Both the position numbers and the translations under genes were made by a program. From Candidatus Pelagibacter sp. (GTDB lineage Bacteria > Pseudomonadota > Alphaproteobacteria > Pelagibacterales > Pelagibacteraceae): a stretch of 15,681 bases of DNA. Shown one piece after another: positions 7,723 to 11,968 of this stretch. The stretch is from assembly GCA_002704185.1 (NCBI GenBank), contig PAFP01000007.1:1-15681 (forward strand). The letters are read 5' to 3'. Positions within the stretch are counted from its first letter, which is position 1. Every line of letters begins with the position of its first letter. Under the pieces are notes generated by a model. That model had not been told where the DNA came from. It made no database searches and saw only the letters and a program-made list of their open reading frames with translations.

Positions 7723-9009
7723 TTAAACTGCGAAGCTTAATACACTTAAAACAGCAACTAACCATATCGCAGGATTTACTCCTGCAGATTTTCCAGTTAA
7801 AATTTTGATTGCTGCGTAAGAAATGAATGCTAACGCAATACCATGACTGATGCTGTATGTTAAAGGCATCGTAATCATAGCTAAGACTGCTGGCGCTGAT
7901 TCAGCAATATCATTCCACTCAATATCTACAATGTTTCTAACAAATAATACTGCAACATATACTAAAGCTGCACCATCAATTTGTTTAGGCAGTGATGTAG
8001 CAAGTGGAGCAAAAAATAGACATGAAAGAAATAAAACTCCTATTACTAACGAAGTCATACCTGTTCTTCCGCCTGCTTTAATACCTGAGCCTGACTCTAT
8101 ATAACTCGTAACTGTTGTAGTTCCTAACATTGAGCCTGCAACTGTTCCAACACTGTCAGATAACATTGCTTTCTCGATATCTTTTACCTTACCTTTAGAG
8201 TCTACTTTTCCAGCTACGTTAGCCACAGAGGTTAATGTTCCAGCTGTATCAAAAAAGTCTACAAAAAAAAGTGTAAACACTACAGTAACCATGCCTGCTG
8301 ATAAAGCTGCACCTAAATCAAAAGTTAAAAGATGTGTCATCGGAGGTATAGACCCAGCTATTCCATTAAATTTAGCTAATCCTAAAACCCAAGCTATTAT
8401 ACTAAATGCCAATATACCTATTATAATATTACCTTTGATTTTAAGTTTTTCTAAAACGATCATCGTCACAAATGCTAAGCACGCCAATAAAACAATCGGA
8501 TCTTTTAAATTGCCAAGCGTAACTAATGTTACGGGGTGGTCTGCTGACACACCCATAATTTGCAAACCAATAATAGCTAAAAATAATCCTATACCTGCAC
8601 CAATACCCAACTTTAAACTCTTTGGAATCGAATTAATTATCCATGCTCTTAAAGGTGTTAGAGAAATTAATAAAAAGGCAATACCCGCTACAAGTACTGC
8701 ACCTAATGCTTGATCTGGAGTATAACCCATCCCTTTACAAACACCGTAAGCAATAAAAGCATTTAAACCCATCCCAGGAGCTAAACCAACTGGCCAAGTT
8801 TTTCCATATGCGGCCATTATAAAGAAAGCAATTGCTGAGGCTAAAATGGTGGCAGTATAAACACCTCCAAAATCAAATCCACCATCACTCAGTATAATGG
8901 GATTTAAAAACATTATATAAGCCATAGTCAAAAAGGTAGTAATACCCGCTGTAACTTCTGTTTTTAGATTGGTTTTGTTTTGTTTAAATTTAAAATATTT
9001 TTCGAACAT
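7723..9009 (-). CDS. Purine permease, AzgA/GhxP-like branch of NCS2 (hypoxanthine/guanine or adenine)
   Basis: This 428-residue inner-membrane proton symporter importing purine bases has about 12-14 hydrophobic segments. Family motifs are strong: TEVTAGITTFLTMAYIMFLNP (17-37), APGMGLNAF (77-85), DFFDTAGTL (251-259), LSDSVGTVAGSMLGTTTVTSYIES (283-306) and GIKAGGRTG (309-317). These belong to the AzgA subgroup and not to the uracil/xanthine UraA/XanQ subgroup. Whether it prefers guanine/hypoxanthine (GhxP-like) or adenine (AdeP-like) cannot be decided by eye. Unlike most genes here it has a canonical ribosome-binding site, AAGGAG, six bases before ATG. It converges on a phosphoribosyltransferase gene, consistent with uptake plus salvage. 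Confidence 0.9.
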   Translation of the reverse strand: MFEKYFKFKQNKTNLKTEVTAGITTFLTMAYIMFLNPIILSDGGFDFGGVYTATILASAIAFFIMAAYGKTWPVGLAPGMGLNAFIAYGVCKGMGYTPDQALGAVLVAGIAFLLISLTPLRAWIINSIPKSLKLGIGAGIGLFLAIIGLQIMGVSADHPVTLVTLGNLKDPIVLLACLAFVTMIVLEKLKIKGNIIIGILAFSIIAWVLGLAKFNGIAGSIPPMTHLLTFDLGAALSAGMVTVVFTLFFVDFFDTAGTLTSVANVAGKVDSKGKVKDIEKAMLSDSVGTVAGSMLGTTTVTSYIESGSGIKAGGRTGMTSLVIGVLFLSCLFFAPLATSLPKQIDGAALVYVAVLFVRNIVDIEWNDIAESAPAVLAMITMPLTYSISHGIALAFISYAAIKILTGKSAGVNPAIWLVAVLSVLSFAV

Positions 9010-9035
9010 AAATCTCCTTATTTAGAGACTTTATA
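9010..9035 (-). promoter_or_regulatory. Candidate -10 box and Shine-Dalgarno of the purine permease gene
   Basis: On the minus strand TATAAA (9035-9030) lies 20 bases before the ATG, predicting a leader of about 13 nt that just holds the Shine-Dalgarno AAGGAG. No clear -35 box is seen. The spacer shows no purine-riboswitch-like three-way junction. Confidence 0.35.
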
Positions 9036-9108
9036 GTTATTGATTCTTATATTTTAAACTTAAAACAATTTTAGATGTGGATTAAATTTAAAACTTAAAA
9101 TAAAATTC

Positions 9109-10461: not shown

Positions 10462-11395
10462 AGTAGCATTCCAAATGGACCCTTTGAACAAAATTAGTCA
10501 AAAGACTGATAGCACTTTAATGCTTATGGTAGAAGCGTATTACAGAGGCTTTAAATTATTTCACTATCAACCTAAAGATTTGTTTCTTGAAAATAATAAA
10601 GTTAAAGCTTTTGGTTATTTTTTTAAAATTGAAAAAAAGGGAACGAAATATTTATTTAAAAAAAGTAATAAACAAAGTATAGATCTTGAAAACTTTAATG
10701 TTATTCTAATTAGGCAAGACCCACCATTTGATTTGAATTATATAACCTCAACTTATTTTTTAGAAAAATTAAATAAAAAAGTTTTAATTGTTAATAATCC
10801 GAGCTCAATAAGAAATCATCCAGAAAAACTTTCAATGTTTGAATTTAAAAAATATATTATTAACACGCTTGTATCTTCAGATATTCAAAATATATTAAAA
10901 TTTCATAGAAAAAATAAAATTTCAATAATTAAACCTCTTTATGGAAATGGTGGAGAAGGTATTCAAAAAATCTCTAATAATATTTGTGAAAGCAAAAGAA
11001 TAATAAATACTACCTTAAAGAAATACAAATACCCACTGATATGTCAAAAATTTATAAAAGATATAAAGTTTGGTGACAGGAGAATTATTTTTATTAATAG
11101 TAATTATGAAGGAAGTGTAGCAAGAATTCCAAAAAAGAATTCAATTAAAGCAAATTTTCATGCAGGTGGTATCGCAAAAAAAACTGGTTTAGTTTTTAGA
11201 GATAAAAAAATTATAAGTGCAGTATCTAAATTTCTGAAGAAAAATGATATTTTCTTCGCAGGTATTGACATTATCGGTAATTATTTAACGGAAATAAACA
11301 TCACTTCACCTACAGGAATACAGGAAATAAATAGATTAAATAATTTCAAATTAGAAAAAATTTTTTGGAATAAAATTCAAATAAAAATTAAATAA
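10448..11395 (+). CDS. gshB: Glutathione synthetase (ATP-grasp)
   Basis: This enzyme adds glycine to gamma-glutamylcysteine using ATP, completing glutathione. It has 315 residues, normal for bacterial GshB. The N-terminal domain carries VAFQMDPLNKISQKTDSTLMLM (6-27) and IRQDPPFDLNYITSTYFLE (88-106). The linker has VNNPSSIRNHPEKL (115-128). The ATP-grasp part has the flexible loop KPLYGNGGEGI (162-172), QKFIKDIKFGDRRIIFIN (200-217), the substrate-contact FHAGG (237-241) and the metal-binding region AGIDIIGNYLTEINITSPTG (271-290). It starts within the end of gshA (14-base overlap), with no separate promoter or Shine-Dalgarno visible. A strong hairpin begins at its stop codon. Confidence 0.94.
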   Translation: MKPFKVAFQMDPLNKISQKTDSTLMLMVEAYYRGFKLFHYQPKDLFLENNKVKAFGYFFKIEKKGTKYLFKKSNKQSIDLENFNVILIRQDPPFDLNYITSTYFLEKLNKKVLIVNNPSSIRNHPEKLSMFEFKKYIINTLVSSDIQNILKFHRKNKISIIKPLYGNGGEGIQKISNNICESKRIINTTLKKYKYPLICQKFIKDIKFGDRRIIFINSNYEGSVARIPKKNSIKANFHAGGIAKKTGLVFRDKKIISAVSKFLKKNDIFFAGIDIIGNYLTEINITSPTGIQEINRLNNFKLEKIFWNKIQIKIK

Positions 11396-11420
11396 ATAGA
11401 GGCGGTGAACCGCCTCTATT
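11395..11420. terminator. Perfect 12-bp hairpin terminator between gshB and hsp20
   Basis: AATAGAGGCGGT (11395-11406) and ACCGCCTCTATT (11409-11420) are exact inverted repeats around a GA loop. It is the most GC-rich spot in the surrounding DNA. Both flanking genes end at it (gshB from the left, hsp20 from the right), and the A/T-rich flanks provide short T-tracts both ways, so it likely terminates both. Confidence 0.85.
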
Positions 11421-11431
11421 TTAATTATATT

Positions 11432-11878
11432 TTACTGTATTTCGATTATTTTCGGTTTTTTCACTTCTGGAATTATTCTTTCCAGAGATACTTTTAAAAG
11501 TCCATCTTTTAATACCGCACTTTTCACTTCAGTATCGTCAGCAATTGTGAAGGTTTTGCTAAAAAATCTTTTTGATATACCTTTGTGTAATACACCATTA
11601 TCTGTATCTTTTTTTAAAGATTTATTATTTAGTGATTTAATAGTTAAAAGATTATCAGCATATTCGATATTGATATCTTTTTTATTATATCCAGCTAAAG
11701 CTACTTCAACATCGTATTTGTTTTCACCTGTTTTAACGATATTGTATGGTGGATAATTTACAGTTGGAGTGTCAAAATAATCATCCTCAAACATTTTTTC
11801 AAAATGATCAAACATGTTATCAAATCCAACCGAAACCGGCCGTAATTGATTAAATATAGATAAAGCATTCTTATTCAT
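11432..11878 (-). CDS. Small heat-shock protein, Hsp20/IbpA class A
   Basis: This ATP-independent holdase chaperone binds unfolding proteins during heat stress and forms cytoplasmic oligomers. From the ATG at 11878 it is 148 residues. An N-terminal arm (1-40) is followed by the alpha-crystallin domain: NYPPYNIVKTGENKYDVEVALAGY (41-64), LTIKS (78-82), HKGISKRFFSKTFTIAD (98-114) and the signature AVLKDGLLKVSLER (121-134). The C-terminal I-x-I motif IEI (145-147) is present. The frame is open further up to 11920, but the ATG at 11878 has a strong Shine-Dalgarno (AAGGAGG, four bases before ATG) and a natural start MNKNALSIFNQLRPVSVGFD, so the 14 upstream codons are read as leader. That leader contains a ROSE-like hairpin. 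The symbol is left blank because the ibpA/hspD naming is ambiguous. Confidence 0.92.
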   Translation of the reverse strand: MNKNALSIFNQLRPVSVGFDNMFDHFEKMFEDDYFDTPTVNYPPYNIVKTGENKYDVEVALAGYNKKDINIEYADNLLTIKSLNNKSLKKDTDNGVLHKGISKRFFSKTFTIADDTEVKSAVLKDGLLKVSLERIIPEVKKPKIIEIQ

Positions 11879-11883
11879 ATTTT

Positions 11884-11902
11884 CCTCCTTTACATAAGCA
11901 AG
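11884..11902 (-). promoter_or_regulatory. ROSE-like RNA-thermometer hairpin masking the hsp20 Shine-Dalgarno
   Basis: Reading the minus strand, CUUGCUU (11902-11896) faces AAGGAG (11890-11885) across a five-base loop AUGUA. The pairs are C-G, U-A, U-G, an unpaired G11899, then C-G, U-A, U-A. The UUGCU element opposite AGGA with an extra G is the hallmark of ROSE thermometers found before alphaproteobacterial and enterobacterial small heat-shock genes. The stem is short and weak, as expected for a structure that opens on warming. It occludes the Shine-Dalgarno of the gene it precedes. Confidence 0.6.
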
Positions 11903-11909
11903 TAATTTA

Positions 11910-11932
11910 GAAGATCCCATAAGGCAATCTTC
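11910..11932 (-). promoter_or_regulatory. Upstream hairpin of the hsp20 leader
   Basis: GAAGAU (11932-11927) pairs perfectly with AUCUUC (11915-11910), extended by a U-G pair and, after a G/G mismatch, two C-G pairs closing a UUAU loop. It is not followed by a T-tract, so it does not look like a terminator. ROSE leaders usually carry one or more such hairpins before the Shine-Dalgarno hairpin. Confidence 0.5.
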
Positions 11933-11940
11933 AATAATTT

Positions 11941-11968
11941 ATTTAGTTATTATTTTATTTTTTTCAAG
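11941..11968 (-). promoter_or_regulatory. Candidate heat-shock (sigma-32-like) promoter for hsp20
   Basis: CTTGAA (11968-11963, minus strand) matches the heat-shock -35 consensus and overlaps the oligopeptidase B stop codon. After a 16-base spacer CTAAAT (11946-11941) is a weak -10. The start would fall near 11934, just before the upstream leader hairpin. The -35 is good and the -10 is poor, hence the low confidence. Confidence 0.3.

Follow-up and report, generated by a model that had tools for sequence, protein, structure and literature searches.

Described ROSE elements and related RNA thermometers

According to one account, small heat shock genes are the invariable partners of ROSE elements (PMC4166951), and ABC transporter genes were later added to their targets (PMC11342760). 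The ibpA leaders of Pseudomonas putida and P. aeruginosa, 62 and 61 nt in length, contain only two hairpins and are proven thermometers (PMC3669281). Phages are also known to carry RNA thermometers, namely lambda cIII, SPbeta blyA and the fourU element of Caudoviricetes sigma70 (PMC11182007). For SAR11, a 2019 screen of strain HIMB5 lists "a possible RNA thermometer" whose gene is unnamed in the available text (PMC6429828) and which may be a prior note of the element described here; the other mention of SAR11 together with RNA thermometers in the accessible texts is a speculation on cold-shock proteins. Among the papers listed in searches of the open-access literature, none was seen to report ROSE in marine phages or before an alphaproteobacterial rpoH gene. 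The SAR11_0636 motif (PMC2704228) was rejected as the same element: the gene behind it encodes a SOUL heme-binding protein, and neither "heat shock" nor "thermometer" appears in the available text of that paper.

The hsp20 locus and its leader

The window (the whole stretch of DNA analysed, 15,681 nt) belongs to a genome of 776 kb in 61 contigs that is 69% complete. The best named relatives are from Pelagibacteraceae (AG-894-A09, AG-359-E06 (90% identity) and HIMB114 (80%)), which places the genome in SAR11, as the initial annotation of this DNA had supposed. The features of the locus are as follows.

11432..11878, minus strand: hsp20 coding sequence, small heat shock protein with an alpha-crystallin domain (ORF list, Pfam HSP20, orthologue starts)
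11932-11876, minus strand: hsp20 leader with two hairpins (sequence and fold)
11884..11890, minus strand: Shine-Dalgarno AAGGAGG (sequence)
11885..11902, minus strand: hairpin II, presumed sensor (fold; core in 94/96 leaders; end-pair trade-off)
11910..11932, minus strand: hairpin I, 7 bp with a bulged G (11925), CC/GG and a UUAU loop (fold, covariation, RNAalifold, RF00435 form)
11941..11946, minus strand: -10-like CTAAAT (by-eye comparison with two genus mates, L002 and L003)
11963..11968, minus strand: CTTGAA, the -35-like box belonging to a putative sigma32 promoter (sequence; CTTGA in 83/95 leaders)

The ATG of hsp20 is located at 11878-11876 on the minus strand, where the orthologues also start, and the product matches the Pfam HSP20 domain with an E of 8e-18; the query used for this match and for the family hsp20 search included one extra codon at its start, from 11881. 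The ORF list extends the frame to an ATG at 11920, within the loop of hairpin I, which was rejected as the start: in relatives this ATG is often missing or is soon followed by a stop codon. In hairpin II, CUUGCUU (11902-11896) is paired with AAGGAG (11890-11885) and leaves the G at 11899 unpaired, so that the stem consists of CUU-G-CUU against AAGGAG with one U-G pair and the bulged G. Hairpin I is encoded by GAAGATTGCC-TTAT-GGGATCTTC (11932-11910, minus strand). The positions that the initial annotation had assigned to the Shine-Dalgarno, CUUGCUU and its second hairpin (hairpin I here) are all right on the minus strand, its CTTGAA lies at 11968-11963, and to these are added the bulged G at 11925 and the C-C/G-G pairs below the UUAU loop. 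Its statement that hsp20 is one of only two genes with a strong Shine-Dalgarno also holds, since this was found at two of the 14 gene starts taken as genuine (hsp20 and a permease at 9009).

From the position of the promoter-like sequence, the hsp20 transcript is expected to start near 11934; in the two genus mates the -10-like position reads CCATAT. At 11964-11968, the peptidase gene upstream of hsp20 ends inside the CTTGAA box (stop codon 11966-11964), a sign of genome compaction.

The leader is very probably a minimal two-hairpin RNA thermometer of the ROSE type. A sigma32-type promoter, if used, would give a transcript whose 5' end coincides with hairpin I or lies just ahead of it. At low temperature, the Shine-Dalgarno would be held in the weak stem of hairpin II and ribosomes would bind poorly; upon warming to a useful temperature, hairpin II would open and Hsp20 would be made. 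Hairpin I would stay folded and may serve as a spacer, a folding guide or a 5' protector. A conserved, protein-free heat switch on the Hsp20 of SAR11 would be a simple and testable mechanism for meeting warming.

Relation to ROSE and ROSE-like elements

The initial annotation had anticipated that covariance models may miss a leader of this kind, and the Rfam scan of the window indeed gave no match at gathering score, and relaxing the limit to E 10 still brought up no ROSE. The element was not reported by Rfam scans of 20 SAR11 loci, 15 loci of other alphaproteobacteria and 20 phage loci either. As it is missed by this public RNA library, marine thermometers are probably undercounted. Across 190 genomes of the class, the classical ROSE model RF00435 gave no hit above its curated threshold and weak hits in 26; among 20 weak-hit loci that were read, an hsp20 frame was present in 16, with two more recognized by eye. 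The RF00435 consensus, printed against three of the weak-hit loci, has a hairpin I composed of a stem, a bulged G, CC/GG and a UUAU loop, which is the hairpin I of the window. The last hairpin of both also places UUGCU opposite AGGA. The SAR11 element differs from classical ROSE in having neither the long middle hairpin nor the outer stem enclosing the hairpin of the Shine-Dalgarno. Because it scores below the curated threshold and has two hairpins where RF00435 has three to four, it is not filed under that family; since its hairpin I equals the consensus, it is read as a ROSE element minus the middle hairpin and the outer stem.

The short ROSE-like leaders of Pseudomonas ibpA (PMC3669281) resemble the SAR11 element in their length of about 60 nt, their two hairpins, the free AUG, the small heat shock gene that follows and the pairing of U(U/C)GCU with the Shine-Dalgarno in the 3' hairpin. 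They are under sigma32 control, and a candidate sigma32-like promoter sequence is present here. The loop-side pair is G-C in Pseudomonas, whereas in SAR11 hairpin II it is U-A or unpaired; the lower C-G pair is kept, and the likeness described is one of hairpin plan. In the SAR11 leader, U(U/C)GCU pairs imperfectly with the Shine-Dalgarno, and the roughly 60 nt ahead of the small heat shock gene contain two hairpins; by anatomy it belongs with the short ROSE-like kind, and its function is presumed to be the same. The initial annotation had proposed a ROSE-like masking of the Shine-Dalgarno by CUUGCUU with an unpaired G, and both the fold and the relatives support this arrangement, with the response to temperature presumed. 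Taken by sequence comparison, the element is real and conserved and appears as a new, trimmed variant of ROSE with a putative thermometer function.

The elements found upstream of ABC transporter genes, called ROSE-like and ROSE-G (PMC11342760, PMC12857270), share the ROSE-kind core paired with the Shine-Dalgarno; they precede other genes, and ROSE-G differs further in its CUGCU and a second bulged G. The available text of PMC11342760 contains no Pelagibacter, SAR11 or rpoH, and that of PMC12857270 contains no rpoH. The phage thermometers lambda cIII, SPbeta blyA and Caudoviricetes sigma70 fourU (PMC11182007) are alike in that translation is gated by temperature in phage genomes, and differ in belonging to other classes and genes, being neither ROSE nor linked to hsp20. 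A fourU thermometer was rejected for the SAR11 leader, as the partner of its Shine-Dalgarno is CUUGCUU and not four U.

Conservation and covariation within the SAR11 family

The hsp20 gene was found in 97 of 147 genomes of the family. The 100 hsp20 matches gave 96 parsed leaders, with a fragment from genome G054 left out and three leaders (L107, L108, L109) kept outside by the protein-start filter; the covariance model R1, built from SAR11 leaders, matches L107 and L108 and does not match L109. As two leaders are identical to others, the alignment contains 94 distinct sequences. T(T/C)GCT followed by AGGAG is present in 94/96 family leaders, and the remaining two have TTGCT followed by TGGAG.

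Across the 94 distinct leaders, 93.1% of the cells are paired and 11 of 16 pairs show changes on both sides. The covariation score of 0.322 was reached by none of 500 shuffles (0.177), and slid partners scored at most 0.091. Hairpin I accounts for most of this regularity, with 98.8% of cells paired, double changes in 7/9 pairs and the bulged G in 91/94 leaders; RNAalifold run without a given structure predicts hairpin I and does not predict hairpin II. The core of hairpin II is nearly invariant in sequence and compensatory change is sparse there, for which reason covariation cannot prove this stem. The initial annotation had looked to relatives for conservation of UUGCU and for compensatory changes in the Shine-Dalgarno stem: the former is upheld, with UUGCU or UCGCU kept in 94/96 leaders and no leader losing both end pairs of hairpin II, but compensatory changes are strong in hairpin I and sparse in the Shine-Dalgarno stem, the core of which hardly varies.

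The end pairs of hairpin II trade off against each other. Only the outer pair is formed in 50 of the 94 distinct leaders, only the inner pair in 39, both in five and neither in none, these counts coming from related sequences and not from independent events. Both the outer-only and the inner-only types are present within each of the genera g3, g4 and g7. This pattern is read as selection on a narrow range of stability.

The heat-shock-like -35 box named in the initial annotation is also widely kept by the relatives, CTTGA being present in 83/95 leaders with enough upstream DNA and a -10-like box in 80/95. A strict pair of -35 and -10 boxes was found in 46/96 leaders, compared with 20/1920 mononucleotide shuffles; the leader of the window is not among the 46.

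One further leader, L106, belongs to the second hsp20 copy of genome G125 and has, by eye, one more hairpin placed between I and II; SAR11 therefore also includes a three-hairpin form.

Folding and computed melting

Judged from the window sequence alone, the fold is hardly more than chance in the energy model. The 62-nt leader has a z of -1.80 and 9/200 shuffles are equally stable, hairpin II alone (-3.0 kcal/mol) is equalled by 21/200 shuffles, and within a 121-nt stretch hairpin II is absent from the minimum-energy fold. The motif CTTGCTN{3,9}AGGAG occurs once in the window against 0.04 expected. It is the comparison with relatives that clearly raises the element above chance. Model R1 matches the leader of the window with an E of 2.9e-15, the leader itself being part of the R1 seed, and the next-best place in the 776 kb genome is the atpE leader with E 0.06-0.6 in two runs. 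Weak R1 scores for the atpE leader were obtained in the window genome and two relatives (G000:C47:12730-12796 on the minus strand, G012:C13:25064-25130 and G039:C1:614851-614917); this leader has a strong Shine-Dalgarno and no UUGCU core.

The isolated hairpin II of the window is predicted at -6.2 kcal/mol at 15 C and -3.0 kcal/mol at 37 C. With the leader cut at the AUG, the Shine-Dalgarno is open at 0.23 at 4 C, 0.31 at 37 C and 0.42 at 50 C. From 4 to 37 C, the opening falls from 0.81 to 0.39 with 9 nt of coding sequence and from 0.58 to 0.49 with 20 nt, both in the wrong direction, and rises again from 0.24 to 0.33 with 30 nt. When 20 nt of coding sequence are attached to each of the 94 leaders, the Shine-Dalgarno is more open at 15 C (0.73) than with shuffled upstream sequences (0.43), and only 3/94 reach the closure seen in the tightest tenth of the shuffles. 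This apparent contradiction of masking arises largely because the anti-Shine-Dalgarno pairs with the coding sequence. A plain stem without the bulge is preferred at 15 C in 6/35 distinct hairpin II sequences. The opening of 13 long ROSE-like leaders has a median of 0.01 at 4 C and 0.08 at 37 C. Between the long ROSE-like leaders and SAR11 lie 22 two-hairpin leaders from outside SAR11 (0.16 and 0.26). Because the long ROSE-like leaders melt as little in the model, the energy-model curves decide little and back the thermometer reading only weakly; with computed melting this weak, we infer a thermometer from homology and anatomy.

Pairing with the coding sequence could itself have a function. In the Pelagibacter subclade whose Hsp20 starts with MTSKD, the anti-Shine-Dalgarno may pair with codons 3-5 (AGUAAGG) and form a two-state switch in place of a simple melting zipper, a possibility to which we give limited credence and which would supplement the thermometer reading, not replace it. 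Codons 2-4 show no synonymous change in 72 SAR11 sequences (ACA 72/72, AGT in 69/69 Ser, AAG in 70/70 Lys), and codons 5-25 that have synonyms all vary in the same sequences. In the remainder of 38 such reading frames (some genomes being represented twice), AAG makes up 87/515 Lys codons and AGT 28/356 Ser codons. The duplex between the anti-Shine-Dalgarno and the coding sequence is computed at -9.4 kcal/mol in genera g2, g5, g10 and g14, against about -2.7 kcal/mol for synonymous versions, with a median share of equally good synonymous versions of 0.02-0.04. The pairing is, however, lacking in the window (-1.7 kcal/mol, 0.93 of synonymous versions equally good) and absent in g6 and g9, and once 30 nt of the gene are included in the fold, the hairpin of the Shine-Dalgarno prevails again. 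The 72 sequences also share ancestry, and the codon run could be kept for another reason.

Distribution among bacteria

Model R1, which matches the leaders it contains by construction, gave matches at E<=2e-8 in 134/197 genomes of the order, and every one of these belongs to the family of the window. At E<=0.1 the count was 151 genomes of the order (135/149 good ones), 17 of which matched only weakly (E 9e-4 or higher) and include all 12 genomes appearing from family f159. None of the weak hits was before hsp20 in the six of these 17 genomes that were inspected, and the 17 are not counted. In a sample of the class, R1 matched 34/289 genomes at E<=0.1. Reading of 27 of these loci placed the element before hsp20 in 11, before rpoH in three (L122, L123, L129), before dnaK in one (L126) and before nothing related in 12. 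NCBIfam confirmed sigma-32 for L122, L123 and L129 and DnaK for L126; the six hsp20 proteins tested matched IbpA/IbpB models at scores under their cut-offs, and the remaining hsp20 calls in the class were made by eye.

The broader model R2 matched 36/367 genomes of the class at E<=0.01 and added the rpoH leaders L198, L200, L201 and L202, and also L336, L338, L339, L340, L343, L344, L346 and L351; the last eight come from a set of 16 loci read, the other eight of which precede nothing related. In the family of genome G346, 18/43 genomes match at E<=0.05, nine of these before rpoH. In all, the element is placed before rpoH in 15 alphaproteobacterial genomes of four families, three of them confirmed by protein family and the other 12 judged from the protein start, not from a family search. 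The window genome has its own rpoH, the leader of which contains no such element. A sample of the phylum gave matches in 8/349 genomes at E<=0.01, three of which are outside the class, and two of those three are before hsp20. The match L337 (E 1.7e-4 per genome) looks false, so single hits near this value need a heat-shock gene to be believed. When other alphaproteobacteria were added to the alignment, 0/500 shuffles reached the covariation score, with the caveat that a model-fitted alignment favours its own structure. Copies before rpoH would mean that the heat-shock circuit is under thermometer control at its uppermost level, and together with the phage copies they form the newest part of the findings.

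Distribution among viruses

The best 80 of 84 hsp20 relatives in viral contigs were scanned (L232-L311). R2 matches the leader before hsp20 in 79/80, and the 80th contig begins inside the element. T(T/C)GCT followed by AGGA is present in 77/80 of these leaders. The 79 matches comprise 46 distinct sequences, in which 144 double-changed cells were counted against 39.7 in shuffles (0/500 as high) in a model-fitted alignment. As viral contigs might be misassigned, named phage records were also examined: 24 were picked and read of 500 records with an hsp20 match (L312-L335), 15 of them from the top 60 and nine from an even spread. The element precedes hsp20 in all 24, with E from 1e-12 to 0.01 and two sharing the same element. 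U(U/C)GCU is present in 23/24 (UCGCU in 18, UUGCU in five), and 11/24 carry a UUCG loop on hairpin I. Their covariation score is 0.466 against 0.148 for shuffles (0/500), from a model-fitted alignment that favours the structure. These records include the Pelagibacter phages Mosig, HTVC008M, HTVC115P and HTVC103P, the cyanophages S-PM2, P-SSM3, Syn33, P-TIM40 and S-CAM1, Methylophilales phage Melnitz-3 and the Pseudomonas jumbo phage Deifobo, the core of which is UUGCG. As the element stands before hsp20 in every named marine phage read, it can be asked whether phages time their chaperone by temperature.

The upstream regions of the viral copies carry promoter-like motifs. ATAAATA is found upstream in 51/76 viral-contig leaders and a sigma32-like pair in five. 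Either TATAAATA or CATAAATA is present upstream in 6/24 named phage records, and we take TATAAATA to be a T4-type late promoter.

In a tree of 88 Hsp20 proteins (149 columns, few for this number of rows), the viral and SAR11 genes interleave. The virus label needs six changes, at least three of which are forced by well-supported branches, and 14 cyanophage-like rows make up one side of a branch. Cyanophage small heat shock proteins have been described as nearer to bacterial class A than to the cyanobacterial ones (PMC3827213). We lean towards the reading that the trimmed ROSE thermometer and hsp20 form a cassette that travels between SAR11-like bacteria and phages and has spread to cyanophages, in which a phage chaperone would be gated by temperature and often transcribed from late-type phage promoters, and that in other alphaproteobacteria the thermometer gates rpoH. 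If so, it would be among the commonest RNA thermometers in the sea.

The distribution bears on an alternative function, in which the leader is mainly a binding site for Hsp20 itself and senses free chaperone and not temperature. E. coli IbpA represses its own mRNA in this manner, and in gamma-proteobacteria IbpA acts on the 5' leader to repress its translation (PMC10474464); the near-invariant core of hairpin II and the weak computed melting would suit a protein site, and the leader and hsp20 stay together in cells and phages. The element is, however, also found before rpoH and dnaK, where self-binding by Hsp20 is not needed, and its anatomy is that of proven thermometers; self-binding is therefore improbable as the main function, and both activities could act on one element. 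That the hairpins arose by chance, or as a by-product of a conserved DNA binding site, would fit the unremarkable single-sequence folding but is barely credible given that 0/500 shuffles reach the covariation score in any of four alignments: SAR11, SAR11 plus other alphaproteobacteria, viral contigs, and named phages (the last three being model-fitted).

Other structures in the window

Two further hairpins were noted in the window. A strong hairpin at 11395-11420 (AAUAGAGGCGG..CCGCCUCUAUU), with T-rich DNA after it, separates hsp20 from a convergent gene whose end is at 11395 and, by eye, is probably a terminator shared by the two. The permease-like gene starting at 9009 also has its Shine-Dalgarno within a stem (GUCUCU..GGAGAU, 9005-9040, minus strand), which has a z of -2.54 and is matched in stability by 3/200 shuffles.
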